Origin: a virus
Strand: one strand, 5' to 3'
Length of the DNA stretch: 39,772 nt
Virus record (IMG/VR): IMGVR_UViG_3300017917_001531
Coordinates: 1 to 39,772 of that record
The notes under the pieces were generated by a model. It made no database searches, was not told where the DNA came from, and saw only the letters and a list, made by a program, of their open reading frames with translations. Positions within the stretch are counted from its first letter, which is position 1. Every line of letters starts with the position of its first letter. Below, one piece after another: positions 2,342-38,429 of this stretch. The translations under genes and the position numbers were made by a program.

Positions 2342-3025
2342 TTATCCTGCAACAAAATCATTCGCCATAGGGAATACCTCGGCGATAACTCTAGCGCACT
2401 CACGTGCAACTGCCATGTGTTCTTTCTGTGTGCCGTGTCCACTACGCAGTTCAATAAAATGAATCCATGAACGCAGTGTGCCATTCATATACATACGTGA
2501 CGTAGTTAAACCTTCTGGTAAAACTGCACGTGCTTGTTCTTTAGCAATTCCATTGCTGACTGCCCACTCATACGTTTCTTTTGCCATTCTAATAATGGCT
2601 TGTTGCTTTGCGTTCCAAAGATTATTTAAATCTCTGTTGTCTTGAATGGTTAAATCCAACTCAACTGAGTTTTGTCTATTTTTGGTATCTTGCAGGCGTG
2701 TTTCTCTTACTTCAAAACTCAAATCCTTTGTTGGATCTGCGTAACGTTGGGAGAATTCTTGGAATGAAAAAGAACGATGACGTAATATCTGTCTTGCGAT
2801 ATCACGTGTTGTTTCAATTTCTAGACAAGCACTAACCATCTCAAGTGGTGACCAGTGTTTGTTTCGAATCAAATAACGAATTAACTTGTCTGCTGTATCT
2901 GTATTAAACTGGTTACTTGGATTACTAACTCGGGCACAAAAAGCGATTAGCTCCTGTGCATCTGTAAGTCCCTCATCATACATCTCACGAGATGGTTTGC
3001 TATAACTAATAAGTTTCACGTTCAC
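2342..3025 (-). CDS. thyX: Flavin-dependent thymidylate synthase ThyX
   Basis: Makes dTMP from dUMP using FAD, NADPH and methylenetetrahydrofolate. The ThyX signature RHR-x7-S is intact (RHRSFSFQEFSQRY, about residues 82-95 from the start used here), and the length (227 residues) suits the family. I prefer the GTG at 3025: GGAG lies six bases upstream, and the codon overlaps the primase stop as GTGA, the same stop-start overlap used by many genes here. An ATG at 3037 would add four residues (MEKK). T4 itself uses the unrelated ThyA-type enzyme; ThyX is typical of aquatic T4-like phages. The gene follows primase and precedes the oxygenase fusion and nrdA. Confidence 0.92.
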   Translation of the reverse strand: MNVKLISYSKPSREMYDEGLTDAQELIAFCARVSNPSNQFNTDTADKLIRYLIRNKHWSPLEMVSACLEIETTRDIARQILRHRSFSFQEFSQRYADPTKDLSFEVRETRLQDTKNRQNSVELDLTIQDNRDLNNLWNAKQQAIIRMAKETYEWAVSNGIAKEQARAVLPEGLTTSRMYMNGTLRSWIHFIELRSGHGTQKEHMAVARECARVIAEVFPMANDFVAG

Positions 3026-4053
3026 TTTTTTCTCCATGTGCTAAAATTCAATTTTGCTTGTATACCAGTATGGGTGTTTGTATTTATTAGTTCTACGATT
3101 TCATCTGGTGTCATTCCGCCATGTAAAACCATTTCATTAATATCTTTCTGTTGTATGGTAGAGGGCATCATACAAACAGAATAACCCAAATCAATATACT
3201 TTTCTAGTTGTTTAATAATATCTTTATTTCTAGGTTCATTATCCATAACAATAGTGGCATTAGCAAGCAACTTCCGAATAGTCGGTGTGTCAAAGCTAGA
3301 ACCAGATACTGCTATGGCATTTGGTAAGAATAAACTATCAATTGGTCCTTCTACTACATAAATTCTTTTGCCATAATCAACTCGATCAAGACCATAAATC
3401 TTTTCTTCTGTGACATCCACCTTGATGGTATAATACTTAGGCTCTTCTCGACCATAAGCTCTGGCTTGAAAAGCAAAACACTTACCAGCTGTAGTAAAAT
3501 AAGGAATAATCATCCTTGGATGTTCATCTACAATCGGCTCTTGAAACTTTGGTGAAACACTATTCGTGAATGCCTTAAACTTAGGTGCAAAATACAAAAG
3601 ATACCATTTGTCACGTGGTATCTTTCTGCTTTCCAGATATTTAATTGCTGGATGTGTTGGGTTGCTTATTGAAAGTTTATCAAGTCTCTGTAGCCCAGAT
3701 AGAAAATCATCCTCTAATAATTCTTCTTTTGGTTCGAGTAGTAATGATGCGATATCTTTGTGAGAGTTATACTTACTGGCACCACCTTTGTATCTTTCCA
3801 TAACATATTGATCATATAAATTTGAGTCAACGTGTTTGATTAAATTACCAATGTTGCTACCATATCCACAGTTGTGACACTTCACAAACAAGTCTTGCTT
3901 AGCACGGTAGATATACCCACGTGCCTTTAACTTATTTTTAGATGAATCACCACACACTGGACATGAATAGTTCCAGAGATATTCATCTTTTTGTTTGAAA
4001 TTTCGCAACCTACTGCCCAGTATTTGGGCATACTTTGCATCAATGTATAACAT
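3022..4053 (-). CDS. 61: DNA primase, T4 gp61 type
   Basis: Synthesises RNA primers on the lagging strand together with helicase gp41. 343 residues, close to T4 gp61. The N-terminal zinc ribbon shows CPVC (Cys 31, 34) and CHNC (Cys 59, 62). The central region carries a TOPRIM-like strand with YVVEGPIDSLFLPNA, where Glu and Asp would bind metal, and later an IVMDNEPRN stretch that could be the second TOPRIM acidic motif. First gene after the 4109-4501 gene, with its own candidate promoter at 4077-4105. Its stop overlaps the thyX start. The helicase partner is encoded far away at 22440-23831. Confidence 0.9.
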   Translation of the reverse strand: MLYIDAKYAQILGSRLRNFKQKDEYLWNYSCPVCGDSSKNKLKARGYIYRAKQDLFVKCHNCGYGSNIGNLIKHVDSNLYDQYVMERYKGGASKYNSHKDIASLLLEPKEELLEDDFLSGLQRLDKLSISNPTHPAIKYLESRKIPRDKWYLLYFAPKFKAFTNSVSPKFQEPIVDEHPRMIIPYFTTAGKCFAFQARAYGREEPKYYTIKVDVTEEKIYGLDRVDYGKRIYVVEGPIDSLFLPNAIAVSGSSFDTPTIRKLLANATIVMDNEPRNKDIIKQLEKYIDLGYSVCMMPSTIQQKDINEMVLHGGMTPDEIVELINTNTHTGIQAKLNFSTWRKK

Positions 4054-4772: not shown

Positions 4773-5224
4773 TTCTGTAATCCCTTTGCAGAATTATTTA
4801 GTATGTCGATTGTGTCCGCTGTGATTTTACACTGGGCATCAATAGTAACTTCAACTTGTTTTATCTTTTCTTGTATTACAACTTGTTGTTCTTTAACAAC
4901 TTTAACTCTGTCTTTATAGACAGTTACGATTTTTTCATTAGTTACTTTTGATTGTGCTTCTGCTGCAGCAACTTTTTCTTCTAAGTCTCTTACCTTTGCT
5001 CGCCATTCCATCTCAACACCGATGCCACCTTTGTAGTAAACACCAACAACAAGCAACAATACACTAACAACTTGTAATATTGTTCTATAAGGTATAAACC
5101 AAGGTATGTATCTTATGACTAGCTTAAATAAGGTTGATGCAAGTGTACCAACCACCCCTGCTATTAGGATGGAATTCACAACTAGTGTAAGGAATGCGTC
5201 AGGTATAAAGTTAAGTAGAAACAT
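4769..5224 (-). CDS. Probable inner-membrane spanin with coiled coil (Rz-like)
   Basis: 151 residues. Two hydrophobic segments (about 12-32 and 44-63) are followed by a charged coiled-coil region (about 70-130, rich in K, E, V and A) and a short C-terminus with one Cys near 132. Together with the overlapping downstream lipoprotein this resembles an i-spanin/o-spanin pair. Classical Rz proteins have a single N-terminal anchor, so two membrane segments are atypical. It overlaps the preceding gene by 14 bases. An alternative is a structural membrane protein of unknown role. Confidence 0.6.
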   Translation of the reverse strand: MFLLNFIPDAFLTLVVNSILIAGVVGTLASTLFKLVIRYIPWFIPYRTILQVVSVLLLVVGVYYKGGIGVEMEWRAKVRDLEEKVAAAEAQSKVTNEKIVTVYKDRVKVVKEQQVVIQEKIKQVEVTIDAQCKITADTIDILNNSAKGLQK

Positions 5225-5720
5225 TTACAGGTTTTCTCCTCGCCAGAACCTGATATTTCTTAATATCTTTCTTTTGAATTTTAGGTTCACTTACTGCTGC
5301 ACCAGCAGTAGAGTTAACAGGTGCATCTTCAGACAGAAATTTCTTAACAAGAATCTCTTCCTCAACAAGCGACACTCTATTATCCAACATTTCAATTAAG
5401 CTGTCAAATTTTTCTTCCATACCTGATATAGAACGACTACCAGAAGCATACTGCTCTTTAACTAACCACAATGCAGCCACTAAAGATTTTAATTTATTCT
5501 CACCACCAATTTTATTAACAATCTTTTTCATGTTAAAAGACAAGCGATGTAAATACGTGTAAGCATCCTTCTCCTCAGAAGTTTTAAGAGTACTAGATTT
5601 TTTTAGATTTTTACCATTCTTATCGATGATACCTAATTTAAATGCTTTCGTGTCTTCAAAGTTAGTCACAAGCATCGTTAGAATTCGATAAGCAATGAGG
5701 TTGTCAATAATACGACTCAT
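5211..5720 (-). CDS. Conserved T4-like phage protein of unknown function
   Basis: 169 residues, beginning MSRIIDNLIAYRILTMLVTNFEDT. I recognise the N-terminal style as a family seen in aquatic T4-like phages, but no function is known to me. The protein is mostly helical and basic; about 111-130 (MLDNRVSLVEEEILVKKFL) could form a coiled coil, and the tail is Ala/Ser/Lys-rich and probably disordered. Its start overlaps the upstream stop by four bases. It shares a transcription unit with 5717-6097 and the spanin genes, suggesting late expression. Confidence 0.7.
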   Translation of the reverse strand: MSRIIDNLIAYRILTMLVTNFEDTKAFKLGIIDKNGKNLKKSSTLKTSEEKDAYTYLHRLSFNMKKIVNKIGGENKLKSLVAALWLVKEQYASGSRSISGMEEKFDSLIEMLDNRVSLVEEEILVKKFLSEDAPVNSTAGAAVSEPKIQKKDIKKYQVLARRKPVNVST

Positions 5721-6699: not shown

Positions 6700-9093
6700 T
6701 TATTTGTATAATTTTGATGTGCCAGTAATTTTACGAGCACCTGATTTTGCCCCAGCAGGACGACCACGACCACGTTTTACATTTTGTGGTTGTTTTGGTT
6801 TTTTATCATCAGCATCGTCAGCACCTTCTGGGTCAACATAGCTTCCACCGTAAGTACCTTTGTGCTTATAAACACCATCTTTAGATTCATACTCAAGCAT
6901 CAACATAAAATCTCTATATGAAACACCAGTCTGTTCTTTTACATTAGTTGGATGTCCATTGATAGGTTTCTTAGTTGCTTTGTATGCTTTGTGCTCTGGA
7001 GTGCCTTTGATATACTTGCGATCTAGAGTCGGAGCAACAGGTGCTTGTTCACCAAATTGTTTCCTAAACTTTTCTTCATCCTTGACTGCTTGTGCGTGAT
7101 GTTGAGAAATAGCAAACTTTAGATCTTTACCTTCACGATTCTTAGCGCTCACTGGACCAGCGTGCACGTCAGTATGTTTTACATTAGTACCAAAAATGTG
7201 ATTTGCAGTTGAAAGGTTAGCGTGAGTGTGAAGTTCCCACTTGCCATCGTACTTGTCGTGAACAGTAACTAGTGGATCTTCGTGAGTAGTTTTCATACCT
7301 TCAGTAATCTGTTCCACTTCTTCATTACTCATCTGACGAATAGCACGACCAATTGCTTTATTGTGCGCTTGAGCAGTTTTGTGTTGTGGTTCTGCATCTG
7401 GGACATAATTACCTTGCGCTTTAAAGCGAGCACCACGAGAAGCATCCATCATTTTACGCTTAGTAGCATTTTCTTTGTTGCGTTCTTCTAATTCTTCTAC
7501 TTCTTCTCTGCGAAGTTTCTTTTCATTTTCTTTTTGCTTCACTAACTTCTTAGCATTGTTAGCGCCTTGCTGAAGTTTGTGTCCAAGATATGCTCCAGCA
7601 ACTGCACCTAGTGGACCACCAGCCATACCGCCCATGATACCACCAGCAACTGCACCAGTAACACCTTCTTCAACATTCTCAGTTTCTTCTTTTGTTACTT
7701 TTTTCATTCCACGTTTTGCTAGATGTTTAGCAATAGACATTGGTGTATGTTTTGCACCAGATTTATCTGTCACAGTACCACTTGTTTTCTTATATGGTCC
7801 ATCAAATGGAACATCATCAGATTTTTCTTTATTAGGATATTTAACTTCAGCTTGTTCTTTTTTCATAGTTCCATCTGCGTTCTTGTGACTTTTTGCACCT
7901 TTGTTCTTAAGATACCATGCCAATGCATAAGGATTATCAATCTCTTTGTGCTTCTTCATTGCTTTAACAGTACCTTCAAATCCTGGTGGAGCAACTTCTT
8001 GAATAGATGCCTTTTTGTCTTCTTCACCGTGTTTGAATACGATCTCTTTATGAGACTTGCGACCAGATGGACTAACTTTATAATCAGAACGTGACATACG
8101 TTCTTCTTGGTCTGCTTCTTCCTTATTGAAAGTGTGTGTCGCACCAACATTTTTACGGTATTGGAAACGATCAGACACTTTATTTTCAGCGCCTTTATCT
8201 GGACCATATCCATGCATACGACTTACAGCACCTATGATGCCTTTGGCAACTTTAGCATCACGATTACTTGTTTCAGGCGCATTCATGTTAGGCTTATGTT
8301 GTGGCTCTCTTTTATTCAAATAACTGGTTGCAAGACCTGAAGAAATTTCATCAATCTGCTCAACTTCTTCTTTAAGGTCAGAATGTTTAACTTTAGTGGT
8401 ACCACCATTATTAGCACCCTGAAAGTGAACATCGTCACCCATACGCTTGGCAGTCCAGTGACGACCAGTTTCATCTTTGAAATTATGTTCTTGATTGTCT
8501 TTTAATTTTGAGATCGCTTGGTGGTGCTCTGGGTGTAGCGGAATAGAAAAGTCTGCACCATGGTGTACTGTCTTCATAGTACCCCAAGAATACTTTTGTG
8601 TCTTAACAGTAGCTTCAGTAAGATCTTCTTTTAATCTACTGTCGGCTGCCAAATGAGTGTCCATTGCTTTTCTAGCATATGCTGGGTCTTTGTCAGCTTT
8701 CTTAGAAAGCAATCTCTCTACTGCTCTTTTGTTGACCTTCTGTAGAAGTTTTTGACCTTTAGCAGTATCACCGTATTCTAGGATCTGTTCTGCTTCTTCT
8801 TTAACTGGTTTGCGCCACTCTTTGTTACCATGATGGCGATCTAAATGCTTAGCTAGGTACTCTTTATCACTGGCAGAAGTGCTCTTGTGATAGTATGCCT
8901 TTTTAACTGTGGCAGCATCGTACATTTTTGGGTTGCTGGCAACTTCAGATGGATCTAAACCTTCTTCAAGTTGTTCAGCTTCTTCTTTACGTAGAAGTTT
9001 AAAGTCGTGGGCATCGATCTTACCGTTTTTATTCTTGTCGATCTTATGCTGTTTACCTTTTAATGCCTCTGCAATTTCTTTATAAGATTTCAT
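6700..9093 (-). CDS. Large multi-repeat internal/virion protein with EF-hand, glycine zipper and AT-hook
   Basis: 797 residues. It opens MKSYKEIAEALKG, close to the T4 internal-protein capsid-targeting sequence. An EF-hand-like loop, DKNKNGKIDAHD, is at 19-30. Linkers of the form KEE-A/V-EQ-hydrophobic-x-E recur near 36, 98, 241, 468, 529 and 590 and separate dissimilar segments; they resemble prohead-protease (I/L-x-E) sites. Residues 478-510 form a glycine zipper (GAVAGGIMGGMAGG), and the C-terminus holds an AT-hook-like RGRGRPAG (about 774-781). The whole protein is very Lys/His-rich. I infer a packaged, protease-processed DNA-associated protein; no enzyme domain is recognised. AAGGG precedes the start, two bases after the Dps stop. 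Confidence 0.75.
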   Translation of the reverse strand: MKSYKEIAEALKGKQHKIDKNKNGKIDAHDFKLLRKEEAEQLEEGLDPSEVASNPKMYDAATVKKAYYHKSTSASDKEYLAKHLDRHHGNKEWRKPVKEEAEQILEYGDTAKGQKLLQKVNKRAVERLLSKKADKDPAYARKAMDTHLAADSRLKEDLTEATVKTQKYSWGTMKTVHHGADFSIPLHPEHHQAISKLKDNQEHNFKDETGRHWTAKRMGDDVHFQGANNGGTTKVKHSDLKEEVEQIDEISSGLATSYLNKREPQHKPNMNAPETSNRDAKVAKGIIGAVSRMHGYGPDKGAENKVSDRFQYRKNVGATHTFNKEEADQEERMSRSDYKVSPSGRKSHKEIVFKHGEEDKKASIQEVAPPGFEGTVKAMKKHKEIDNPYALAWYLKNKGAKSHKNADGTMKKEQAEVKYPNKEKSDDVPFDGPYKKTSGTVTDKSGAKHTPMSIAKHLAKRGMKKVTKEETENVEEGVTGAVAGGIMGGMAGGPLGAVAGAYLGHKLQQGANNAKKLVKQKENEKKLRREEVEELEERNKENATKRKMMDASRGARFKAQGNYVPDAEPQHKTAQAHNKAIGRAIRQMSNEEVEQITEGMKTTHEDPLVTVHDKYDGKWELHTHANLSTANHIFGTNVKHTDVHAGPVSAKNREGKDLKFAISQHHAQAVKDEEKFRKQFGEQAPVAPTLDRKYIKGTPEHKAYKATKKPINGHPTNVKEQTGVSYRDFMLMLEYESKDGVYKHKGTYGGSYVDPEGADDADDKKPKQPQNVKRGRGRPAGAKSGARKITGTSKLYK

Positions 9094-9094
9094 T

Positions 9095-9535
9095 TTATTC
9101 GCCCTTCATGAAGGATCTTAACATCCATCCGTGTTTTTTGTGAGTATCTATTCTACCAGCCGCAAAATCTGCCAACCCTTGTTCATTTGCATCTGAAGCA
9201 GACTTGAATAATTTATTTAGGGATTCCAAGACTTCGTTATTTGCAGAAAGTAGATTACCTAACATTCCAGCGCAAGTGTCTGGTATTGATGTATCTTCTT
9301 CAATTGTTTTCATTCTGTACAAGTCACTCATACTAAATGGTGCATAATCTTGACATGCTCTGATCTCTTCAGCAATACCATCAATTGCTATATGTAGTTC
9401 TTGATATAAATTTCCAAAGAAATCATGATACTGGGCAAAATCTGAACCCTCGACATTCCAATGATACGAGTGCGCTTTAAAATACATAACAAACGTATTT
9501 CCCAGAACAACTTTTAATGCTGCAATATATTCCAT
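9095..9535 (-). CDS. Dps/ferritin-like protein
   Basis: 146 residues. Dps proteins form 12-subunit shells that oxidise Fe(II) with peroxide, and many coat DNA. The ferroxidase residues are complete and correctly spaced: His 25 (in YHWNVEG), His 37, Asp 52 and Glu 56, giving 12-, 15- and 4-residue intervals identical to those of E. coli Dps (His51, His63, Asp78, Glu82). No Lys-rich N-terminal DNA-binding tail is present. It sits inside the virion-protein block, between an unknown structural-type gene and the large repeat protein, so it is probably expressed late. It could protect packaged or newly made DNA from oxidative damage; that use is inferred. Confidence 0.9.
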   Translation of the reverse strand: MEYIAALKVVLGNTFVMYFKAHSYHWNVEGSDFAQYHDFFGNLYQELHIAIDGIAEEIRACQDYAPFSMSDLYRMKTIEEDTSIPDTCAGMLGNLLSANNEVLESLNKLFKSASDANEQGLADFAAGRIDTHKKHGWMLRSFMKGE

Positions 9536-9536
9536 T

Positions 9537-10013
9537 TTAACTTCCTACCACAGATTCGTTATCATATGAACCAAATACAGCAGTTTCAACTTTTGGTAGC
9601 CATCCTATCTTGCGCAGCTTTAGTATGCAATGTCCTGGTCCATCAAATGTTAATCTGAGATCTCTGTCAGCATAAATTCTATCAGCAAATCCGTGATGAT
9701 CAAACTCATATTGTCCTGCATTTATTAAATAATAGTGGCTGTGTACAGTTGCACCAACTATTCTAGTTACGTCTAACTGTTTATCTTTTTTCAATCCCCA
9801 CCATATACCTGTAATGAATACATGAGATCCTGTATAATGTGCAAAGTGTCCATCAGTTTCTGGCGAGTCATTAGCACCAGTAACATAAGTTTGTTTTGAT
9901 GTGGTCAACCATGTTTGTAAACTGATATCGATAGACTCTCCAGCAGATTCAACTGTATAAACTTTAATAACTGCTTCAGTCTCTGAGTTTTTTAATACAT
10001 GTATCTTAGACAT
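9537..10013 (-). CDS. Beta-rich probable virion protein, unknown function
   Basis: 158 residues, no signal peptide or membrane segment. The sequence alternates polar and hydrophobic residues (IKVYTVES, ISLQTWL, HVFITGIWWGL, LRLTFDGPGHCILKL), suggesting a compact all-beta fold. It carries many aromatic and His residues (HFAHYTGSHVF, VHSHYYLI). I recognise no family function. Position between the Dps gene and capsid-targeted genes points to a virion component. It begins MSKIHVLKN, without the capsid-targeting-like N-terminus of its neighbours. Confidence 0.65.
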   Translation of the reverse strand: MSKIHVLKNSETEAVIKVYTVESAGESIDISLQTWLTTSKQTYVTGANDSPETDGHFAHYTGSHVFITGIWWGLKKDKQLDVTRIVGATVHSHYYLINAGQYEFDHHGFADRIYADRDLRLTFDGPGHCILKLRKIGWLPKVETAVFGSYDNESVVGS

Positions 10014-10559
10014 TTAGCAGTTCCATTTTCTTAGTGCCAACGCTTTACGAGTTGGTTCACCATTTGGTTTTTTCATTGGACCTTCCATACCACCCATACG
10101 AGCACAGAAAGACTTACGACGTTTTGCTGCTTTACTATCAGGGTTTAACTTTGATGGTGGAGTAGTCACTGGTGCTTTTAGATTAGCACCTTTAGCGTTA
10201 TAAGCATCACGACCCTTTTGTGTCAATCCACCTGTAGAAGACTTATGCCCTTTTGCATCAACTGCATATTCAAACAACTTTTCATCTTCAACACCATCAA
10301 ACTTTTCCCAAATACTTTCTGGATCAATATTATATTCATGTGCCATATCCATAACCATCTCTTCGATTAAATCGAACTGCTGGTCAGCAGACAGTTGTTC
10401 ATTTTGTGATGCTTTAAAAGCTGCGTCTGTTGGAGCACCTTTGCTTCCAGGTTTACGCATACGTTCACCAGAACCAGCTTTGATTCTTTTGCGCTTGGCG
10501 TGGATATTGTCCCACAACCCACGCTCACCTTCCTCTAGATATTTTTTAAATGTTAGCAT
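10014..10559 (-). CDS. Candidate capsid-targeted internal protein, unknown function
   Basis: 181 residues from ATG 10559. A start at 10571 (MGLN-) is possible, but 10559 leaves GGGA in the leader and begins MLTFKKYLEEGE, which fits the capsid-targeting pattern shared by nearby genes (E at position 10, L-x-E cleavage-like site). The body has a basic segment (AKRKRIKAGSGERMRKPGS), an acidic helix (QFDLIEEMVMDMAHEY) and a C-terminal SKAAKRRKSFCARMGGMEGPMKK block recognisable from many phage structural proteins. It is probably packaged with the DNA. It starts one base after the upstream stop. Confidence 0.65.
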   Translation of the reverse strand: MLTFKKYLEEGERGLWDNIHAKRKRIKAGSGERMRKPGSKGAPTDAAFKASQNEQLSADQQFDLIEEMVMDMAHEYNIDPESIWEKFDGVEDEKLFEYAVDAKGHKSSTGGLTQKGRDAYNAKGANLKAPVTTPPSKLNPDSKAAKRRKSFCARMGGMEGPMKKPNGEPTRKALALRKWNC

Positions 10560-10560
10560 A

Positions 10561-10875
10561 TTAAGTCCCATAAGTGTCGTCTATAGCACCAGAACGGAAA
10601 CCAGTTTTAGCTGGCACATGGTGTGGTGCTGATGGTGGATTCTTCTTGCGTTCTTGTGCACGCTTCTTTATAAGTTCAGCTGTTTCTTTTTTCTTTTGGT
10701 CAGAAGTTACAATACGTGCATTCTTATAACCTTTTTCATGAGCCATCTTTAGAAAGTCATCTGCCAAACCCTCTTTAACACAAGAATCTTCAGCACATGG
10801 TGCTGTTCCAGGTTTACGTTTGTAACCTTTCCAGCAGTTACACGCTTCATTTAACCACTGTTTAAAAAGCAACAT
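10561..10875 (-). CDS. Small basic candidate capsid-targeted protein
   Basis: 104 residues from ATG 10875, chosen because AAGGA precedes it at good spacing and the protein then begins MLLFKQWLNEACN, the shared capsid-targeting-like pattern. A frame to 10935 exists without a ribosome site. Four cysteines (NACNCWKGY and CAEDSC) in the first 35 residues could bind a metal or form disulfides. The rest is helical and Lys-rich, with a Pro/Gly tail; CVKEGLADDFLKMAHEKGYKNARIV suggests a small folded segment. It overlaps the upstream gene by 14 bases. Function unknown; packaging is inferred. Confidence 0.6.
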   Translation of the reverse strand: MLLFKQWLNEACNCWKGYKRKPGTAPCAEDSCVKEGLADDFLKMAHEKGYKNARIVTSDQKKKETAELIKKRAQERKKNPPSAPHHVPAKTGFRSGAIDDTYGT

Positions 10876-13030
10876 TTTGAGATCCTTGTGTGTATTTTGA
10901 ATGTGATAATCTAGCCTTTTCCATCTTGCGAACACGTGGTGCCAATCTCATAGCAATTCTGCCGATAGCTGCTTTACGTGTTTCGATCATTCTTTCGATA
11001 CGTTCTTTTTCGCCAACAGAAAGTTTTGATGGATCTCTACCACGTAGCAATCTTTTCTTCATTAACTTAACAGCTAAACGACGTGAACGTTTGTTAATAG
11101 TTTTTGTATCTGAATAACGTTTAATTGCAATCTGTGCTGCACGTTCACGTTTGGCTTTCGTGCGACGAATTCTGCTAACTGCTTTCATACGTTCTGCACG
11201 AGAAAGAACTTCTAATAATGCAGACTCTTGTATTTTCTTTTCTTCTTCTTCGTCTGGTTCTAGTTCTTCGCCAGTTTCAGAATCAACTATACCCAACTCA
11301 TTTTCATCATATGTATCGATATAGTCATCATCTGATAACTGATCTGCATACATTTCAATTTCGTCATCACTCATTTCTGGAATATCGTAATCTTCTTTTT
11401 CTACTTCTTCTTTGGTTAAGTTTTCTTTTTCTTTTTTGTGCTGATCTGCTAATGCTTGTTTTTCTTTACCTTGCTGCAACATTAGACGAGCACGTTCTTC
11501 TGATGCTTTACGCTTCTCGCCTTCTTTACGTAGGGCATCAGCTAGCTTTAAGCTAGCAGAAACTGCCTCTGTCATACCGCTCATTTTATCAATAAATGAC
11601 TTGGCTAATTTTTTCTGTTTGGTTGTATGTTCTGGGCTAGTTTGAATATGCTGGGCTGTGTTCTCATGACCAGCCTCATCGCCATATGATGTCATATCTA
11701 AGTGTGGTGGTTTCTTTTGTTCACCAAGATGATATTTAACTTTGCGACGACGTAGGTTATCTTGTTTACCTGGGGCAACTAAAGTATGACCAACTTCTGA
11801 ATGATCTTTTTGTTTTGTATTGTGGTCATGATCATGATCTGATTCTGTATCTTTTTTATTGTCATTATCAGATTCTTGATGCTCACACATTTTATTTAAT
11901 TTTTTATAGTCATTAAAACGAAGAACATCTTTAGCAATATTATATTTACTAGATTTATTAACCTTGTCTTCTTTTAATTTTGTTGGCTTTAATGTAGCAT
12001 CATAGTTAATTCCTACATTTGTAGCAAGAGCCAACATCTTGTCTAAGATAGACAACGCTTCAGGATTTAATGCCTTTGTACGAACTTTACGTAGTGCCTG
12101 ATTGACTAGATTCTCTGCATTAGATGATGCTTCGGCATTATCAATACCAAGCATAGTTGCTATCATTCTAGCTACTTTAATCTTGTCATTGACCTTTAAC
12201 GTCTTGTCTGTTAATTCTTCGTTCATATTTTCTTTTTCTTCTGTAGGAATAACATCATGAATCCACTTAGATGTCAATTGGTTATTTGAATGCTCTTTTA
12301 GTAAAAGATGATTTGAACCACGTTTTATAATAGTAAATCTTTCGCCGTTGCTTTCTACTATATCACCTTCGTTGAAAATTTCTCCACGAAAATACTGTTC
12401 ACGCAATTCATCCTTTACTAAAACAACTTGTTCTTTAATAGGTTCTAATCCCATTCCCTCACGAATATCATTCATTAAACGACGACCATCTATTTCACGA
12501 ACAGCAGATGGCAATCCTTTTTTAAATTCTGCGTAGTTACCTTTGACTGCGAGTGCTCTCATCTTAGATGCAGACATACCTGTAGCATCATCAGCGTCGG
12601 GGTCACGCTCTCCTGCAGAAATAACATCAATAGTATCAAAATTAAATTCTTTACCATTATACTGGTTTAATAATCGTTTAAATTCTGGCACACGATCACT
12701 GCCAGCAACCATAATAATGTTTTTATATTTCTTGTTTAGTTCTTTAGCTGCTTCTATAAAAGTTCGAACATGATCGTTTGCGGCAGCAAAGTGAGTACCC
12801 TTAAACATCAAGTTAAGATACTTGACTTTCTTGTCTACACTTAATGGGTTCTTTTTAGCGTCTTGTGAGCGAGATGCATAGATGACGTGATCTGCAGATC
12901 TCTGCTTGGCTAATTTTTTGACAGCTTTGACCAGTAACTCATGTCCTGTAGTCGGAGGATTAAATCTTCCGAATGCCATTACTACAGATTTAGCTGGTAG
13001 CTCTTTGATTAGTTGTTTATAGCGTTTCAT
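10862..13030 (-). CDS. HIGH-family nucleotidyltransferase fused to a long charged tail and basic C-terminal domain
   Basis: About 722 residues from ATG 13030; ATG 13039 adds MGQ, and neither has a clear ribosome site. After MKRYKQLIKELP, residues about 17-180 form a cytidylyltransferase/NMN-adenylyltransferase-like domain: GRFNPPTTGH contains the T/HxGH nucleotide-binding motif, and GMSASKMR matches the ISSTxxR-type C-terminal motif. The middle is Lys/Glu/Asp-rich and low in complexity. The last 110 residues are a strongly basic helical domain (LSRAERMKAVSRIRRTKAKRER onward) known to me as a separate small protein in related phages, so this is probably a fusion. The substrate is not determinable by eye; NMN or a sugar/lipid phosphate is possible. 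Confidence 0.75.
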   Translation of the reverse strand: MKRYKQLIKELPAKSVVMAFGRFNPPTTGHELLVKAVKKLAKQRSADHVIYASRSQDAKKNPLSVDKKVKYLNLMFKGTHFAAANDHVRTFIEAAKELNKKYKNIIMVAGSDRVPEFKRLLNQYNGKEFNFDTIDVISAGERDPDADDATGMSASKMRALAVKGNYAEFKKGLPSAVREIDGRRLMNDIREGMGLEPIKEQVVLVKDELREQYFRGEIFNEGDIVESNGERFTIIKRGSNHLLLKEHSNNQLTSKWIHDVIPTEEKENMNEELTDKTLKVNDKIKVARMIATMLGIDNAEASSNAENLVNQALRKVRTKALNPEALSILDKMLALATNVGINYDATLKPTKLKEDKVNKSSKYNIAKDVLRFNDYKKLNKMCEHQESDNDNKKDTESDHDHDHNTKQKDHSEVGHTLVAPGKQDNLRRRKVKYHLGEQKKPPHLDMTSYGDEAGHENTAQHIQTSPEHTTKQKKLAKSFIDKMSGMTEAVSASLKLADALRKEGEKRKASEERARLMLQQGKEKQALADQHKKEKENLTKEEVEKEDYDIPEMSDDEIEMYADQLSDDDYIDTYDENELGIVDSETGEELEPDEEEEKKIQESALLEVLSRAERMKAVSRIRRTKAKRERAAQIAIKRYSDTKTINKRSRRLAVKLMKKRLLRGRDPSKLSVGEKERIERMIETRKAAIGRIAMRLAPRVRKMEKARLSHSKYTQGSQNVAF

Positions 13031-13060
13031 TTGACCCATTAATTTATGTTATTGCATTGT

Positions 13061-13068
13061 TATTTAGG
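13061..13068 (-). promoter_or_regulatory. Late-promoter-like motif CCTAAATA
   Basis: CCTAAATA on the minus strand, 30 bases upstream of the nucleotidyltransferase start at 13030, overlapping the end region of the preceding gene. T4 late promoters use TATAAATA as their only core element. The same octamer precedes genes at three other sites in this window. Confidence 0.45.
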
Positions 13069-13070
13069 AA

Positions 13071-13307
13071 TTACGCAATGCTCAACATAGCCTCAGCAGC
13101 AGCGCAAATCCATCGACATGCAATCTCGTCGGAAGCTAACTCTTGCTGGGCACGAACAGTAGCAATTTCAGACAATAAAAATTCGTATTCTTCTCTGGTA
13201 AGGTGTCCTGACGAATATTCATCACGGATATTAATTAGCTCTTGCGCAAGTACCCCAGCTGGACCACCCATACCTGCTTGTTGTCTTAACTCTTCGAATA
13301 AACTCAT
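13071..13307 (-). CDS. Small conserved phage protein, unknown function
   Basis: 78 residues from ATG 13307, which overlaps the upstream stop as ATGA and has GGAGG five bases upstream; the ATG at 13319 is less favoured. Sequence MSLFEELRQQAGMGGPAGVLAQELINIRDEY, then REEYEFLLSEI and a C-terminal ACRWICAAAEAMLSIA helix. It is probably a small helical soluble protein. No motif indicates function. It is translationally coupled to the lipoprotein gene before it. Confidence 0.65.
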   Translation of the reverse strand: MSLFEELRQQAGMGGPAGVLAQELINIRDEYSSGHLTREEYEFLLSEIATVRAQQELASDEIACRWICAAAEAMLSIA

Positions 13308-13645
13308 CTTCCCCTCCATGCGTCGGTTATAACATCTACTCTTGCTCGATTAATTTTAACTACGGATTCACAGAACTTTTCATTATTAGATGCTTGCGCT
13401 TTCTTAAGAGCAACTTCTAGATCTTCTACAGCCTTAGCTTGTGGATCTTTTCTCAAGGAAGTGTAAACTTTTAGACGTTCTATTTTAGTGAAAGTATCTT
13501 GCCATTGTTTATTCTTACAGTCTAAATTATCGACTGCAATTTTAATGTCAACCACATCTCTGAACATAACTGGATCATGTGGTTTGGGTAATATAAAAGA
13601 ACACCCTGATAAAACAAGCGATACTGCTACTAATATTAATTTCAT
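13304..13645 (-). CDS. Small lipoprotein, unknown function
   Basis: 113 residues from ATG 13645, chosen because it overlaps the upstream TGA as ATGA and has AGGA at workable distance. A lipoprotein signal MKLILVAVSLVLSGC puts the acylated cysteine at 15 (lipobox VLSGC). The mature part is charged and helical (QDTFTKIERLKVYTSLRKD, EDLEVALKKAQASNNEKF) with cysteines near 48 and 95. It would sit in the periplasm or outer membrane. It could be a second outer spanin or a superinfection-exclusion lipoprotein, but no inner-membrane partner lies next to it, so the role is open. Confidence 0.65.
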   Translation of the reverse strand: MKLILVAVSLVLSGCSFILPKPHDPVMFRDVVDIKIAVDNLDCKNKQWQDTFTKIERLKVYTSLRKDPQAKAVEDLEVALKKAQASNNEKFCESVVKINRARVDVITDAWRGR

Positions 13646-14871
13646 CGTTGCCATCCTTTAATAATATCTGGTGAGAAATTAGACTTACTAAACTCTAGTC
13701 TGTCTACAATTTTTACAGCACCACCAGTTAGATGATCAATAGCCACGAACCCTTCGACTCCAGTGACTTTATATCCTGTGGTAGTTTTTAAGAATGTGCT
13801 AATATGTCCTGCTTCATTCATTTTATTTACAATCATTAACTTTGCTTTAGCCAATAGATTGACCATGTCAAAAATCTTAACAATGTCAGCTTTGTCGTGA
13901 TTGGCAAAAAATGATAGAACAGCACTACGTTTTTGTTCTTGTGCTTGCTTACCTTTTTCTGTTTTTTTAGTTTCTATTTCTTTCTGGTACTTATCATGTA
14001 TGTAATTGAATAATCCAACCACGTGCGCATGTGTATCAGTTATTTGTTCTCCAGCACGAACCTTAGAATTATTGTAAGTATTTACTGCCATGTTTAAATC
14101 ATCATTATCTTTGATGGCATTAAGAGTAGCTGCAGGAATTTGTCCAAACAACTTACCAGCTGCAGAAAGAATAGATGTTAGTTCAGCAGTCTCTGATTGA
14201 GTGAATGTAGCAGTGCCAGAATAATCTTTATAGTTAGCATCATCCATCCAAACCGATGTGCTTTGAGACATTTTATTTACAATTGATTGGCCAAAAGATG
14301 CACTCATAGTTTCGAAAGTCGAACCAGTATATGTGGTGTGCCATACGACACCAATTTTGGCTTTCATTATCTTGTTGGCTAATTCGCTACCAACAGGTAC
14401 TGCATATACAATAGTGTTTGGGTGGAATGTTACATACTTTTGACCATCGATAGTAACAACTTGCTTGTCATTAGTAAACATCAAGTCACCCTGATAAACA
14501 CCAGACTTAATACCAAGTTTTTTAAACTCTGCTAAAGCAACTTTTAGTTTAGCATTCAGATCACCTTGCGTGTCTGCATCAATGTCAGCATTTGTTTTGT
14601 AGACTTTAGGGTCTTTGTTAAATACACCCTTCTTTGCTACGAAGAATTTTTTGTCACGTGGATCGATACCAGCAAACACAGCTGGAGCACCATCCCATTT
14701 AACTGTAGCTGTTACTTTACTCTTAGAATTTCCAGCCAACATATCACGTAGATCTTGTAAAAAGTTTATCGCTTTGCGAGTACCTTCTACACCACCATCG
14801 AACACCAAATCCTCCACGTGTGTCATGTGGGTATTCTTTTGTTCGACTATGAAACTCTTTAGACTCTTCAT
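13642..14871 (-). CDS. Divergent ligase-fold (covalent nucleotidyltransferase-like) protein, candidate capsid-targeted
   Basis: 409 residues. It begins MKSLKSFIVEQKN (capsid-targeting-like, I-V-E). The core shows the motif order of the DNA/RNA ligase and capping-enzyme superfamily: motif I KWDG (Lys 58), FFVAKKGVF (about 76-84), motif III-like YQGDLMF (126-132), motif IV-like EGFVAI (373-378) and motif V-like VKIVDR (386-391). A long helical insert separates III from IV. It resembles a phage family I know as DUF6267; ligase-type chemistry is my inference, and Asp replaces the usual motif III Glu. The gene has a consensus promoter directly upstream (14881-14909) whose start site leaves almost no leader. 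Confidence 0.65.
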   Translation of the reverse strand: MKSLKSFIVEQKNTHMTHVEDLVFDGGVEGTRKAINFLQDLRDMLAGNSKSKVTATVKWDGAPAVFAGIDPRDKKFFVAKKGVFNKDPKVYKTNADIDADTQGDLNAKLKVALAEFKKLGIKSGVYQGDLMFTNDKQVVTIDGQKYVTFHPNTIVYAVPVGSELANKIMKAKIGVVWHTTYTGSTFETMSASFGQSIVNKMSQSTSVWMDDANYKDYSGTATFTQSETAELTSILSAAGKLFGQIPAATLNAIKDNDDLNMAVNTYNNSKVRAGEQITDTHAHVVGLFNYIHDKYQKEIETKKTEKGKQAQEQKRSAVLSFFANHDKADIVKIFDMVNLLAKAKLMIVNKMNEAGHISTFLKTTTGYKVTGVEGFVAIDHLTGGAVKIVDRLEFSKSNFSPDIIKGWQR

Positions 14872-14880
14872 TCTTTTCCT

Positions 14881-14909
14881 ATTATACTACAAGTTGCAAT
14901 TATTGTCAA
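14881..14909 (-). promoter_or_regulatory. Consensus sigma70-type promoter upstream of the ligase-fold gene
   Basis: On the minus strand TTGACA (14909-14904), 17 bases and TATAAT (14886-14881): a perfect match at the optimal spacing. The -10 ends 10 bases before the ATG at 14871, so the transcript would be nearly leaderless. The spacer starts ATAATTGC, similar to the TTAATTGC in the promoters at 31842 and 32475. Confidence 0.8.
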
Positions 14910-14914
14910 TTAAT

Positions 14915-14935
14915 AACCCTACAGGATGTAAGGTT
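14915..14935 (-). terminator. Hairpin terminator overlapping the stop of the nuclease-like gene
   Basis: On the minus strand AACCTTACA and TGTAGGGTT pair over nine positions (one G-U) around a three-base loop, followed by ATTAATT. The hairpin overlaps the stop codon at 14934 and is followed at once by the promoter at 14909. The U-tract is poor, so it may be a weak terminator. Its stem resembles the perfect hairpin at 32518-32538. Confidence 0.5.
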
Positions 14936-16145
14936 ATTTCAACCCGAAAGCACCGACTAGCCCCTTGTGTGGACCACTAGAACTCTTGACTGTGAAAGTA
15001 GCAGCGTTACCGATCTTCCCTGTTTCTTTATTCTTACCTTTAATAACTACAGTAGTACCACCATTATGAACAGCATGTAACCCTTCAAATTTATCTAAAT
15101 GATTATCTGCTAAACTATGAGATGGTTTTACTACGGATTCTGCAGACCCATCATTTTTAACTTTACTATGAGCAACAGAATGCGGGATATGAGTTTTAGC
15201 AGACACGTGGTCACGAACAACATCACGAAGTTTTGCGTCATCATACTTAGTTAAACCAGAAGCAAAATGTTTTGCTACTGCTTTCTTTGATTCTAATGAA
15301 GAAGACTCTGCTTGTGCCGCACGTGTAGATGCTTGGTGTAAAAATACTTCTGGGTGTTTGTGTGTATCGTGGGCTTTGATGAACGTGGATAAGTGATCGT
15401 GCATTATCTTATTTTTCTTGCTCAATGTTTTACCAGTATCAACCAAAGACTGTAAACGAGAGTGTTCTTGTTTAGCTTTTTCAATACCCATCTTATCAAT
15501 TTTATATTGTATATTTTTCTGATCAGCGCTGCCATTATATCCTAGTCTATCCATACTTTCATGGTGACTATCAGTTAATCTCTTTAAAGAACCAGATTCT
15601 ATGTTTGCTGTCTTTTCCATAGAATCTAATCCTGGATTGCGATAGTTTGGTTCCTGAGAACCATACTTAGCAGACACGCCATGATGACCAACAACTTTGC
15701 CATCTTTGTGTAATGTAAGTATTAAGTCAGCGTTAGAGTTAACATCTCTAACACCAGTTGTCTTTTCATGATCACCAGCTTTAGTTGGTTTATCTGGATT
15801 AGAAGTCCAGTGGACATTACCAATACTAGTACCTTTACCAAGATGTCCTTGATCATGTAAATGTTTCACTAGTGCTGCCGCAGTTTGCTTAGCATGAGAG
15901 TCAATTTCAGCATATGCAGCATCGCCAATTTTCTTTTTTAATCTATCATGAACTTGAATTGGTGTTCCAGCGTGTTCATCGTTTTCAGATTCAGAACGGT
16001 GGTGATCTGGTAGACGAGTTTCTGGGTGCAGATATTTAGAAAGAAGTAGTTCGTGTAACTTACCTTTATCATCAGATTCTACTTCTGACGATAATGCTTT
16101 CTCGATTAATAATTCTTCTTTTAAAAATGTCTTAAATTTTAACAT
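14934..16145 (-). CDS. Candidate capsid-targeted protein with a nuclease-like core
   Basis: 403 residues from ATG 16145, with GAGG five bases upstream. It begins MLKFKTFLKEELL, the best match here to the capsid-targeting pattern. The central segment NADLILTLHKDGK...GVSAKYG (Asp 140, Ser 158, Lys 160) with an upstream Glu 32 in KGKLHELLLSKYL recalls the PD-(D/E)xK restriction-endonuclease core, although the usual Asp/Glu before the Lys is Ser. The remainder is His/Lys-rich and helical. The gene next to it encodes a clearer PD-(D/E)xK protein, which supports but does not prove nuclease function. Alternatively this is a DNA-binding internal protein. Confidence 0.6.
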   Translation of the reverse strand: MLKFKTFLKEELLIEKALSSEVESDDKGKLHELLLSKYLHPETRLPDHHRSESENDEHAGTPIQVHDRLKKKIGDAAYAEIDSHAKQTAAALVKHLHDQGHLGKGTSIGNVHWTSNPDKPTKAGDHEKTTGVRDVNSNADLILTLHKDGKVVGHHGVSAKYGSQEPNYRNPGLDSMEKTANIESGSLKRLTDSHHESMDRLGYNGSADQKNIQYKIDKMGIEKAKQEHSRLQSLVDTGKTLSKKNKIMHDHLSTFIKAHDTHKHPEVFLHQASTRAAQAESSSLESKKAVAKHFASGLTKYDDAKLRDVVRDHVSAKTHIPHSVAHSKVKNDGSAESVVKPSHSLADNHLDKFEGLHAVHNGGTTVVIKGKNKETGKIGNAATFTVKSSSGPHKGLVGAFGLK

Positions 16146-22439: not shown

Positions 22440-23831
22440 TTAAAACTTAAACCCATCAAACGACTCTGTCTTTTGTCTGCGCCCAAATGTAGTCTTGTCG
22501 AACATAGGTTCATCGTCGTCTCTTCCTGCATCAGCTAATCCATCTTGTGCGGATGCTTCTGTGTCATATAATTTCATCTTTGCTCTATCAATTCCAATAA
22601 CGAATCTCTTGTAAAAACTTGGATCATTATATCGGTTCTTCAATTGCTTAACGATAATCTGATTCAATGCTTCTAGTTCTTCATTACTGACTAGCGCAAA
22701 CATAAAGTCAGCTGTCGCAGGTAATCCAAATGATTCTGAAGTGTCCTCAAGTCCTGGGTCTGAGTTTGTATATCCAGATCTAGTTGTTTGAGTTGCACTA
22801 ACAATAGGCACATTATGTTCAACTGCCAATCCCCTTAATTCCTCTGCGATTGCCTTAACATATGTATAAGAATTAATATTTGACCCTTGCTTAAGTCTTT
22901 GGCTTGCACAGATATTCAAGTAATCAATAAAGATAATGTCTGGTTTAAAGTCACGCTTTAGTTTCAATTCTTCAAGCAAAGCACGGAAATGACCAGAGTG
23001 TGCGCCAGCTGTTGGGTATTCTTTAATAATAAGTTTACCTTGGGTCTTTTTAGAGATCTTATCAATCCTAGTTTCATAAATGTCTCTGTCGATAACTTTC
23101 AGTTCATCCATGGTCAGGTTCAAGAGGTTCGCATCGATACGTTCAGCGATACGTTCTTCAGCCATCTCCATTGTTATGTATAATACATTTTTACCCTGAT
23201 TCAAAACAGAGCCAGCAACGTGACACATAAACAGCGATTTACCAACACCAGTACCAGCCAGTGCGATGTTTAGAGTTTTCTTACTCAACCCACCTTTGGT
23301 GATTTTGTTGAACATCTCCAGATCGAAAGGAATCTTCTCCTCGACACGATGGTAGAATTCATATCGTTCTGTGTGGTCTGCGAGGTAGTCGTGACCAACA
23401 TGACTATCAAAAGAAACGGCAAGAGCATCAGATAGAATAGAAGGAATAGCATCTTGTGTGTGAACCTTATCTTTACCATCAATAATTTTAATGGAAGCCA
23501 GAATGGCATTATAAACAGCACGATCTTTACAAAATTTTTCTGTGCTTTGAAGCAACCAGTCCTCGTTGACTGGCTCGTGGTCTAATTTTTGAATGTACTC
23601 AGTTAGTTCAGAAAGTTCTTTGTCTGTTAAATCTTTTCTATTGCTAACTTCAATAGCTAAAACATCTTTGCTTGCTGGTTTGTTGTACTTATTAAAAAAC
23701 TCAATCACTTCATACGCTACAATAGATTCTTTTCTATCTGCAAAGTAATCTCTTTTTATAAATGGAATAACTTTCCTACAGTAATGTTCATCATAAATCA
23801 GATTGGTTAAAATCTTTTGTTCTATTCTCAT
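22440..23831 (-). CDS. 41: Replicative DNA helicase, T4 gp41 type
   Basis: 463 residues from ATG 23831; a GTG at 23840 would add MGL. DnaB-like hexameric 5'-3' helicase that unwinds the fork and works with primase gp61. The RecA-like domain has Walker A AGTGVGKS (about 192-199) and Walker B KPDIIFIDYLNI, then SATQTTRSGY and the C-terminal QLKNRYNDPSFYKRF region typical of the DnaB family. The length matches T4 gp41 (about 475). The start overlaps the preceding small gene by about 40 bases. It is directly followed by the dioxygenase gene. Confidence 0.92.
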   Translation of the reverse strand: MRIEQKILTNLIYDEHYCRKVIPFIKRDYFADRKESIVAYEVIEFFNKYNKPASKDVLAIEVSNRKDLTDKELSELTEYIQKLDHEPVNEDWLLQSTEKFCKDRAVYNAILASIKIIDGKDKVHTQDAIPSILSDALAVSFDSHVGHDYLADHTERYEFYHRVEEKIPFDLEMFNKITKGGLSKKTLNIALAGTGVGKSLFMCHVAGSVLNQGKNVLYITMEMAEERIAERIDANLLNLTMDELKVIDRDIYETRIDKISKKTQGKLIIKEYPTAGAHSGHFRALLEELKLKRDFKPDIIFIDYLNICASQRLKQGSNINSYTYVKAIAEELRGLAVEHNVPIVSATQTTRSGYTNSDPGLEDTSESFGLPATADFMFALVSNEELEALNQIIVKQLKNRYNDPSFYKRFVIGIDRAKMKLYDTEASAQDGLADAGRDDDEPMFDKTTFGRRQKTESFDGFKF

Positions 23832-24105
23832 CAACCCCACCAGTGTAAACTAAGTTGTTTTTTAAAAGACCTTCTTCCAACATATCAATAAGGATATCAC
23901 CGATATGTTGCCTAAACTCTGCGGCATTTACTTGGCCACCAGGATTATCTTCTATGTTATATTCAAACTGCACTCGAAGAACATTATCTTCTTCAAGTAA
24001 ACGGACTCTACCGTAAGTATAAATTATACCCTTATACTTACCATCTGTCAATAATATCTTGTAAAGTCCATCTACATCGTCATCTAACAATGTGTAATTC
24101 TTCAT
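23791..24105 (-). CDS. Small conserved protein between uvsX and gp41, unknown function
   Basis: 104 residues, acidic, with beta-type alternation (GLYKILLTDGKYKGIIYTYGRVRLLEED, LRVQFEYNI) and a helix (RQHIGDILIDMLEEGLLKN). Small genes at this position are familiar in aquatic T4-like phages, but their function is not known to me. It overlaps the uvsX stop by four bases and extends into the gp41 start, so it is translationally coupled to both and may act in recombination or helicase loading; that is inference from position. Confidence 0.65.
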   Translation of the reverse strand: MKNYTLLDDDVDGLYKILLTDGKYKGIIYTYGRVRLLEEDNVLRVQFEYNIEDNPGGQVNAAEFRQHIGDILIDMLEEGLLKNNLVYTGGVDENRTKDFNQSDL

Positions 24106-37512: not shown

Positions 37513-38019
37513 TTAAGAATTTAATACTTTTGCACATGCGTTCATCACGGAAGCGATTCGCCCAATATCACGCAATTGTCCAACAGTATAACCCATCTTC
37601 TTCAATCCATCGTAGTGCGCCTTCACACAGAAGTGGCACTTTCCGACGATAGATGCAGCAAGAGAGTAGGCTTCGAATCTCTCTTTGGTAGTTCCACCAG
37701 CGTCTGCAATAGCGTTCATACGCAACCCTGCAGGCAACCCTTTTAGGTTAGCATCATCAGCCATCTCAACATAGGGATACCATACGTTGTTTTGTGCCAT
37801 TAAACTTGCAGCAGTCATTGCAGCACTTGCTTCAACAGGATTATCTGCGAGCATAACGCTCAACAGTTTACCATTACCAGTTGCAGCCAATGCAGCCACG
37901 GCACAACCCATAGCTGTATCGACATCAAGAGAACTACGCAAAAGGACAGCTTCCAAGTTTAGCTTGGTGTCTTTTGCGTAGTCTGGTAATGCTGTTTTCA
38001 CTGAATCAATGAAACTCAT
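37513..38019 (-). CDS. AhpD-like alkylhydroperoxidase (carboxymuconolactone decarboxylase family)
   Basis: 168 residues. The all-helical AhpD fold is signalled by KCHFCVKAHYDGLKKMG, with redox Cys 128 and Cys 131 and His 135; Glu 116 stands where the AhpD proton-relay Glu would be. In actinobacteria AhpD reduces the peroxiredoxin AhpC. A peroxiredoxin is encoded two genes upstream in the same unit, so an AhpC/AhpD peroxide-detoxifying pair is likely. Its start overlaps the SGNH gene stop by four bases. Confidence 0.85.
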   Translation of the reverse strand: MSFIDSVKTALPDYAKDTKLNLEAVLLRSSLDVDTAMGCAVAALAATGNGKLLSVMLADNPVEASAAMTAASLMAQNNVWYPYVEMADDANLKGLPAGLRMNAIADAGGTTKERFEAYSLAASIVGKCHFCVKAHYDGLKKMGYTVGQLRDIGRIASVMNACAKVLNS

Positions 38020-38429
38020 TTTGTTTGTTCTCCAATAACTTTATATCCTCGCCCTGTTGGGTGGATACCATCAGCACTCATATGGTTTTCAGGTCTTGGA
38101 AGAACTACGTCTCCATATTCCTTGGCAATACGATCGATAGCATCCTGAGCAATAGGTTTTCTTATTGCTCCAGGACTAATCCAAAAGACACGATCCGCCT
38201 TCACAGCAGATCGCATTTTTCTTAGTTCGTGTTCAGTCTTAACACCAGCATGATCATTAGCTCCAAGACTAATAATAAGGGTCTTTGGAGTACGAGTAGA
38301 AGCAACTGACAAATAATCTTTGTTCCATTGCCAACTGTTCCAGCCACCACGAGAATAACTAACACATTCTGGTCTAGCTGTTGCTACACCAACTGCGATG
38401 CTATCACCAACGATCATACATTCTAGCAT
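38016..38429 (-). CDS. Small SGNH/GDSL-family hydrolase
   Basis: 137 residues. The catalytic blocks are all present: GDS (Ser 10) in MIVGDSIAVGVA, block III SLGANDH (Asn 58), and block V DGIHPTGRGY (Asp 120, His 123). There is no signal peptide, so it is cytoplasmic or virion-borne. SGNH enzymes cleave esters, acetyl groups or thioesters; the substrate is unknown. It is shorter than most members (about 200). It lies between peroxiredoxin and AhpD-like genes, overlapping both, so it might act on lipid or sugar esters during infection. Confidence 0.8.
   Translation of the reverse strand: MLECMIVGDSIAVGVATARPECVSYSRGGWNSWQWNKDYLSVASTRTPKTLIISLGANDHAGVKTEHELRKMRSAVKADRVFWISPGAIRKPIAQDAIDRIAKEYGDVVLPRPENHMSADGIHPTGRGYKVIGEQTK

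Follow-up and report, generated by a model that had tools for sequence, protein, structure and literature searches.

The viral fragment IMGVR_UViG_3300017917_001531 (39,772 bases, referred to as the window), which carries T4-like replication genes, holds six neighboring genes whose products begin with a short tip resembling the capsid-targeting sequence (CTS) of phage T4. It is very likely that these six genes encode virion cargo, in which the tip would serve as a T4-type CTS, be cut by a protease of the gp21 family, and be lost from proteins delivered with the DNA. The observations made here cover the motif and its register, its confinement to a single gene island among close relatives, the way it is gained and lost as a module, the arrangement of linkers and beads in one of the proteins, and the match with published virion proteomes of relatives.

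All six N-termini named in the original prediction were located on the minus strand. Five of the six proteins (MLTFKKYLEE, MLLFKQWLNE, MKRYKQLIKE, MKSLKSFIVE, and MLKFKTFLKE) are in the exact register of the T4 CTS at positions 4, 7, 8, and 10, and they follow the pattern M-x-x-(F/Y/L)-x-x-(F/Y/W/L)-(I/L)-x-E when aligned with MKTYQEFIAE of T4 IPII and IPIII, which bears out the proposed resemblance to the T4 targeting and gp21-cleavage sequence. The sixth tip (gene 6700-9093) is a 9-residue form, MKSYKEIAE|A, one residue shorter, with its hydrophobic positions shifted by one relative to positions 4 and 7 of the other five and with the (I/L)xE end at I7-A8-E9 before A10, instead of I/L8-x-E10; the single pattern first drawn for all six tips was slightly loose in this respect. 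Three tips use starts inside the longest open reading frame, at 10559 (MLTFKKYLEE), 10875 (MLLFKQWLNE), and 13030 (MKRYKQLIKE), with two of these starts 3 and 4 codons into the frame and that of MLLFKQWLNE 20 codons in. The start of MLLFKQWLNE has a good Shine-Dalgarno-like AAGGA upstream, whereas the other two have only GGG-type stretches. The tagged genes are neighbors, as described, but they are not contiguous, and untagged genes stand between them at 9095-9535 (Dps-like), 9537-10013, 13071-13319, and 13304-13654. The unrelated mature parts had been taken to argue against common descent; the mature parts are indeed unrelated, but descent of the 10-codon tip itself is possible. The synonymous codons of the tips differ among the window genes, which is compatible with convergence or with an old shuffling event, and recent DNA copying was considered as the source of the shared tip and set aside on the same difference.

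A strict regular expression was built on the positions critical in T4, namely 4 and 7 (targeting) and 8 and 10 (processing), with position 4 widened to L after the window had been seen. As a control in T4, it recovers IPII, IPIII, and 61.1, and gp24 loosely; IPII, IPIII, and gp24 are known gp21 substrates. Against a background of 6 strict matches at 7,878 internal methionines, 5 of the 109 window starts match, compared with 0.083 expected (Poisson p ~3e-8). With only aromatic residues (F/Y/W) allowed at positions 4 and 7, there are three matches in the window versus none at 280 internal methionines, and 21 starts versus 4 of 10,471 internal methionines over 13 genomes. A megablast search of the 6-17 kb region against phages and a search of the 797-residue polyprotein encoded there against a phage collection gave no match, and viral contigs were therefore used for comparison. 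Among 80 related viral loci, found via the DUF6267 gene, the 10-residue tip occurs in 196 of 1,193 genes versus 6 of 6,886 internal methionines, an enrichment of ~190-fold; since the loci are centered on a tagged gene, the design raises the tagged fraction, but it does not create the contrast with internal methionines. The motif search proposed in the original prediction finds the tip enriched at starts both in this genome and in its relatives. In three full-length relatives (G001, G002, and G003), all strict matches fall within the island between gp41 and gp61. Similarity by chance, or driven by translation in AT-rich phages that favor lysine-rich, hydrophobic starts, is hardly credible: A-rich codons early in the gene could account for the frequent lysines at positions 2 and 5, but the spacing of F4, F7, I/L8, and E10, the enrichment, and the confinement to one island in close relatives would be left unexplained, and the out-of-sample counts in the related loci contradict it. 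Used by itself, the 9-residue motif lacks specificity (it matches at 13 of 6,886 internal methionines), and MSLFDELRE was discarded as a false match, the window copy being without the E. No late promoter TATAAATA was found in the window, which has no bearing either way.

It is also evident that the tip behaves as an add-on that ends at the predicted cleavage site. The tagged families in the relatives comprise DUF6267, the cytidylyltransferase, a 403-residue protein, a HAD-like protein, DUF6321, an 88-residue protein, and singletons. The strict tip is present in 77 of 88 DUF6267 proteins (several others are near-misses, e.g., MITSQNYITE), in 25 of 27 of the protein with the HAD-like motif FDIDDTLF, in 20 of 21 of the DUF6321 family, and in all 10 of the 88-residue family. 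One protein starts with MTANTVLSDINEIYTG and has no tip in L056, L058, and G001, and its tagged counterparts read MKTFREFILE|MATANTVLSDINEIYTG in L077 and MKTFKEYITE|MATANTVLSDINEIYTG in L078. In HTVC008M, Melnitz, C48C1, DLP_6, and the window, DUF6267 carries a leader with (I/L)xE at its end; the leader is absent from S-PM2 and S-SZBM1, where the protein starts directly at the conserved KNxHLEHLED-type core. In the 403-residue family, 13 residues are missing from one relative (L090) exactly after E10. Across 16 relatives, E10 of the DUF6267 tip is invariant and position 9 is free. Peptidase_S77, the gp21 family, turned up in every one of the 15 records searched, from T4 and relatives; in the phage of the window its gene would lie outside this fragment. 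The gp23 sites of the relatives, presumed by analogy with T4, are FLTE, FLSE, FLGE, MLNE, and LLGE, with LFE or LNE in the nearest relatives, and the comparison with gp21 specificity called for at the outset comes out favorably, the predicted cut of the tip being LxE as presumed for these gp23 proteins.

Several sequences resemble the gp23 arm itself. Toward the C-terminal end of the protein at window positions 5211-5720 stands KKFLSE|DAPVNSTAGAAV, which resembles the presumed gp23 site and arm of Melnitz (FLSE|AAPTNSTGSAV). T4 gp61.1 (AF158101 18966-19130) resembles, past its tip, the mature N-arm of T4 gp23 (GDxGxNxxNIxxGxTSGAVxxxGP; score 69 versus 40 for the next best), and ORF97 of S-SCSM1 (MK867354 93082-93306), labeled a virion protein, resembles the gp23 arm of its own phage (80 versus 42). 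The likeness is weaker in Melnitz and HTVC008M and was not seen in C48C1, DLP_6, or S-PM2. On these alignments, gp61.1 and ORF97 could possibly mimic the arm of the capsid protein.

Packaging, as originally predicted, is supported by tagged proteins in the published proteomes of four relatives. The cytidylyltransferase orthologue is listed in virions of S-CREM2 (PMC10665884), S-SZBM1 (PMC9146016), and S-SCSM1 (PMC9602691), and its N-termini are MKNFSSFLTE|A (S-CREM2 gp154), MRFRQFIIE|A (S-SZBM1 gp140, one residue shorter), and MKSFLQFLKE|A (S-SCSM1 ORF91). Five S-CREM2 genes have a strict tip, encoding gp6 (S-adenosylmethionine [SAM] hydrolase), gp13, gp14 (kinase), gp154 (cytidylyltransferase), and gp175; the virion list holds four of them (gp6, gp13, gp14, and gp154) versus 52 of ~219 proteins overall (p = 0.012). 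The kinase of S-CRM01, reported in virions, begins with MISFDQFLSE and is located in the gp41-gp61 island. In S-SCSM1, island ORFs 89, 90, 91, 92, 93, 95, and 97 are labeled virion proteins. The untagged DUF6267 of S-SZBM1 is not in the published virion list. In the passages covered from the cyanophage proteome papers, neither a targeting sequence nor a packaging route is described. A further S-CREM2 virion protein, gp12 (OR473000 7704-10313), is annotated as Cas9 with no Pfam match and has LRFASFMAE|A ~17 residues in; its family shows a basic lead followed by a tip-like SF(L/I/M)xE|A ~17-25 residues in, at a position conserved in the relatives.

Several observations weigh against the interpretation as targeted cargo. 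The 39.8 kb of the window include no head genes, and the virion data come from relatives. Few genes entered the S-CREM2 test, which gave a modest p-value, and gp175 is tagged yet missing from the published list; likewise, S-SZBM1 gp191 and gp192 are tagged yet not listed, leaving one of three tagged proteins in that list. ORF90 of S-SCSM1 is in virions without a canonical tip, and the tip is therefore not the only route for such island proteins. The authors of two of the papers left contamination of their lists open. Three of the six window tips lack an aromatic residue at position 4, position 7, or both, the gp23 sites of close relatives have no aromatic residue at P4 (ALFE and ALNE), and the regular expression found no strict tip in HTVC008M or S-PM2.

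The tip could instead be a docking helix through which the enzymes attach, inside the infected cell, to one another or to some other phage machine, with neither packaging nor cutting. It forms an N-terminal helix in the AlphaFold 2 (AF2) model of the 403-residue protein, of low confidence there, and the tagged genes adjoin replication genes. We regard docking as very unlikely, however, since it leaves unexplained the invariant E10 beside a free position 9, the match to the LxE sites of gp23, the exact junction with tagless homologs, and the tagged proteins in virions.

If the six proteins are cargo as we propose, the hydrophobic face of the tip (positions 4 and 7) would bind the scaffold core during prohead assembly, and the prohead would close around the tip-bound cargo. 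The gp21-family protease would then cut after (I/L)xE, at residue 10, or at residue 9 in the polyprotein, and the mature cargo would be retained in the head with the DNA and enter the host at infection. We infer core binding, cleavage of these proteins, and injection by analogy with T4, in which mutagenesis assigned residues 4 and 7 to targeting and residues 8 and 10 to processing (PMC9026906). The proteins might also be packaged as in T4 but untrimmed or partly trimmed and not injected, with a role in prohead assembly or a final place in the capsid. A T4 D10 variant is indeed targeted and not processed (PMC9026906), and cleavage here is a prediction; this outcome is nevertheless distinctly unlikely, given that different families conserve I/L8 and E10 along with positions 4 and 7 (for all of which the regular expression selects), that the enzymatic domains have no obvious role in assembly, and that T4 IPI is injected (PMC3012670). 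The nature of the cargo and the position of the island suggest an early role in NAD or nucleotide metabolism, host takeover, or counter-defense; takeover or counter-defense is suggested because of the NMNAT-like enzyme, the kinases and SAM hydrolase of the relatives, and an island position matching that of the proposed anti-toxin-antitoxin (anti-TA) island of T4.

The most unusual part of the system is the 797-residue protein. It contains six EExExxxE linkers, mostly of the form KEE(V/A)EQ(I/L)xE, versus 0.0065 expected in shuffled sequences, and the predicted linker cuts fall after residues 44, 106, 249, ~463, 537, and 598. Its 46 distinct relatives have 100 such linkers versus 0.32 expected, and the beads obtained by cutting at the linkers recur in ~40 different arrangements. 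The residues preceding a bead fit [ILVM]xE at 111 of 195 junctions, compared with 4 of 1,145 interior positions; for beads 2, 3, 6, 8, and 10 the proportion is 68 of 75, and beads 5 and 12 break the rule. RGRGRP is found in 33 of the 46 relatives, in most of them at most 45 residues from the C-terminus, and many end in KRGRGRPxG; we take this tail to be AT-hook-like. The S-SCSM1 virion proteins ORF89 and ORF92 hold the linkers KEEVENVDE and KEEVELDE. Judged from sequence, the 797-residue protein is probably a precursor in which small, shuffled domains are strung together and from which many short internal peptides, most of them basic, are cut. Alternatively, it may remain uncut, the KEEVEQIDE segments being flexible acidic spacers of a structural virion protein. 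Phage structural proteins often contain low-complexity linkers, and cleavage is only predicted, but the spacers terminate in (I/L)xE, the protease signature, directly after which the beads recombine, at the junction counts given above, and we consider an uncut protein unlikely. A second tip-like stretch, SYRDFMLMLE, lies near the C-terminus of the polyprotein, with SFKEFLSQLDE and SFKAFLEE in relatives (L078, L100, and L109), and the last residues of S-SCSM1 ORF93 are RTFKEFLEYIE, a hint that targeting may be C-terminal.

The enzyme assignments of the original prediction fared unevenly. The nucleotidyltransferase is confirmed: gene 10862-13030 matches PF01467 (6.8e-6) and a PHROG cytidyltransferase (2.9e-66) and has the nucleotide-binding motif GRFNPPTTGH. 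A ligase fold for DUF6267 rested on the KWDGAP motif, which is invariant in close relatives, and found no support from an AF2 model (pLDDT 70), Foldseek, a PDB profile search, or comparison with T4 RnlB. Nor did structure prediction and fold search confirm a nuclease-like fold for the 403-residue protein, the best Foldseek match being MspI (E 0.78, not significant). The remaining two products with a 10-residue tip, from genes 10014-10559 and 10561-10875, are small proteins. In S-PM2 (LN828717 93485-95260), DUF6267 and the cytidylyltransferase form one fusion protein, which suggests that they share a function. The untagged protein at 9095-9535, inside the cargo island, is Dps/ferritin-like (PF00210, 1.1e-19). 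At 37513-38965, apparent peroxiredoxin-like and AhpD-like proteins lie beside an SGNH-like hydrolase, an unusual set. The gene order of the island and its borders, listed with the other features in Table 1, is also found in Melnitz, S-PM2, S-SZBM1, S-SCSM1, and S-CRM01. The islands of C48C1 and Melnitz, phages that have been cultured or sequenced, hold the closest homologs.

Table 1. Positions of the tips, the polyprotein, and the island borders in the window
Feature	Position	Strand	Remarks
9-residue targeting/cleavage tip MKSYKEIAE|A of polyprotein (predicted)	9067..9093	-	9-mer form recurs in relatives L058, L196, L056
797-residue bead polyprotein, 6 EExExxxE linkers, EF-hand-like loop near N-terminus	6700..9093	-	
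C-terminal KRGRGRPAGAKSGAR, AT-hook-like putative DNA-binding tail of polyprotein	6703..6777	-	RGRGRP in relatives
Putative CTS MLTFKKYLEE	10530..10559	-	gene 10014-10559, C-terminal DUF6321 domain
Putative CTS MLLFKQWLNE	10846..10875	-	gene 10561-10875; AAGGA upstream of internal ATG
Putative CTS MKRYKQLIKE	13001..13030	-	gene 10862-13030, NMNAT-like cytidylyltransferase, basic tail
Putative CTS MKSLKSFIVE	14842..14871	-	gene 13642-14871, DUF6267 (PF19782 6.1e-105)
Putative CTS MLKFKTFLKE	16116..16145	-	gene 14934-16145, 403 residues
gp61-like primase, one island border	3022..4053	-	sequence similarity to T4 gp61
gp41-like helicase, other island border	22440..23840	-	order gp41-cluster-gp61 as in relatives

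More generally, it seems fairly likely that T4-like phages other than the T-even ones load a variable set of enzymes and peptides by means of an exchangeable, cleavable head-address tag and of interchangeable beads on a protease-cut string, and that the genes for much of this set lie between gp41 and gp61. If so, one rule would explain why several otherwise puzzling "non-structural" proteins occur in cyanophage virions, and the kinases, NMNAT-like enzymes, and SAM hydrolases found there would gain a testable packaging mechanism. Proteins delivered by the virion act before any phage gene expression, yet they are hard to recognize; should the tag rule hold beyond T4, the sequences of marine and freshwater T4-like phages would reveal candidate injected effectors. 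For T4 itself the CTS is already known, and its possible general use by T4-like phages has been proposed in a review (PMC9026906). A literature search, with subscription journals mostly outside it, found only this review for "capsid targeting" with "cyanophage" and no mention of DUF6267.

The window cargo resembles T4 IPI, IPII, and IPIII in the 10-residue tip, the hydrophobic positions 4 and 7, I/L8, E10, the unrelated mature parts, and the gp21-type protease of the relatives; it differs in its large enzymes and polyprotein, the 9-residue variant, the gp41-gp61 location, and mature parts unrelated to those of the T4 internal proteins. T4 gp61.1 (MKTFKEFIKE...) has the same tip in the same place beside the gp61 primase, but it is a 54-residue protein and not an enzyme; its presence in virions was not found in the literature covered. 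Its region is near a possible anti-TA island (61.2, 61.5 dmd, and tifA) (PMC9391042). The virion NMNAT-like proteins and kinases of S-CREM2, S-SCSM1, S-SZBM1, and S-CRM01 are alike in the orthologous cytidylyltransferase and in the tip on detected proteins, and S-SCSM1, S-SZBM1, and S-CRM01 share the window type of island, whereas DUF6267 is without the tip in the cyanophages checked. T4 gp67, a precursor of internal peptides, and the multi-site propeptides of phiKZ and SPN3US likewise place several prohead-protease sites in one head protein; unlike these, the window polyprotein has many distinct small domains, strung together and shuffled between phages, and an AT-hook-like tail.

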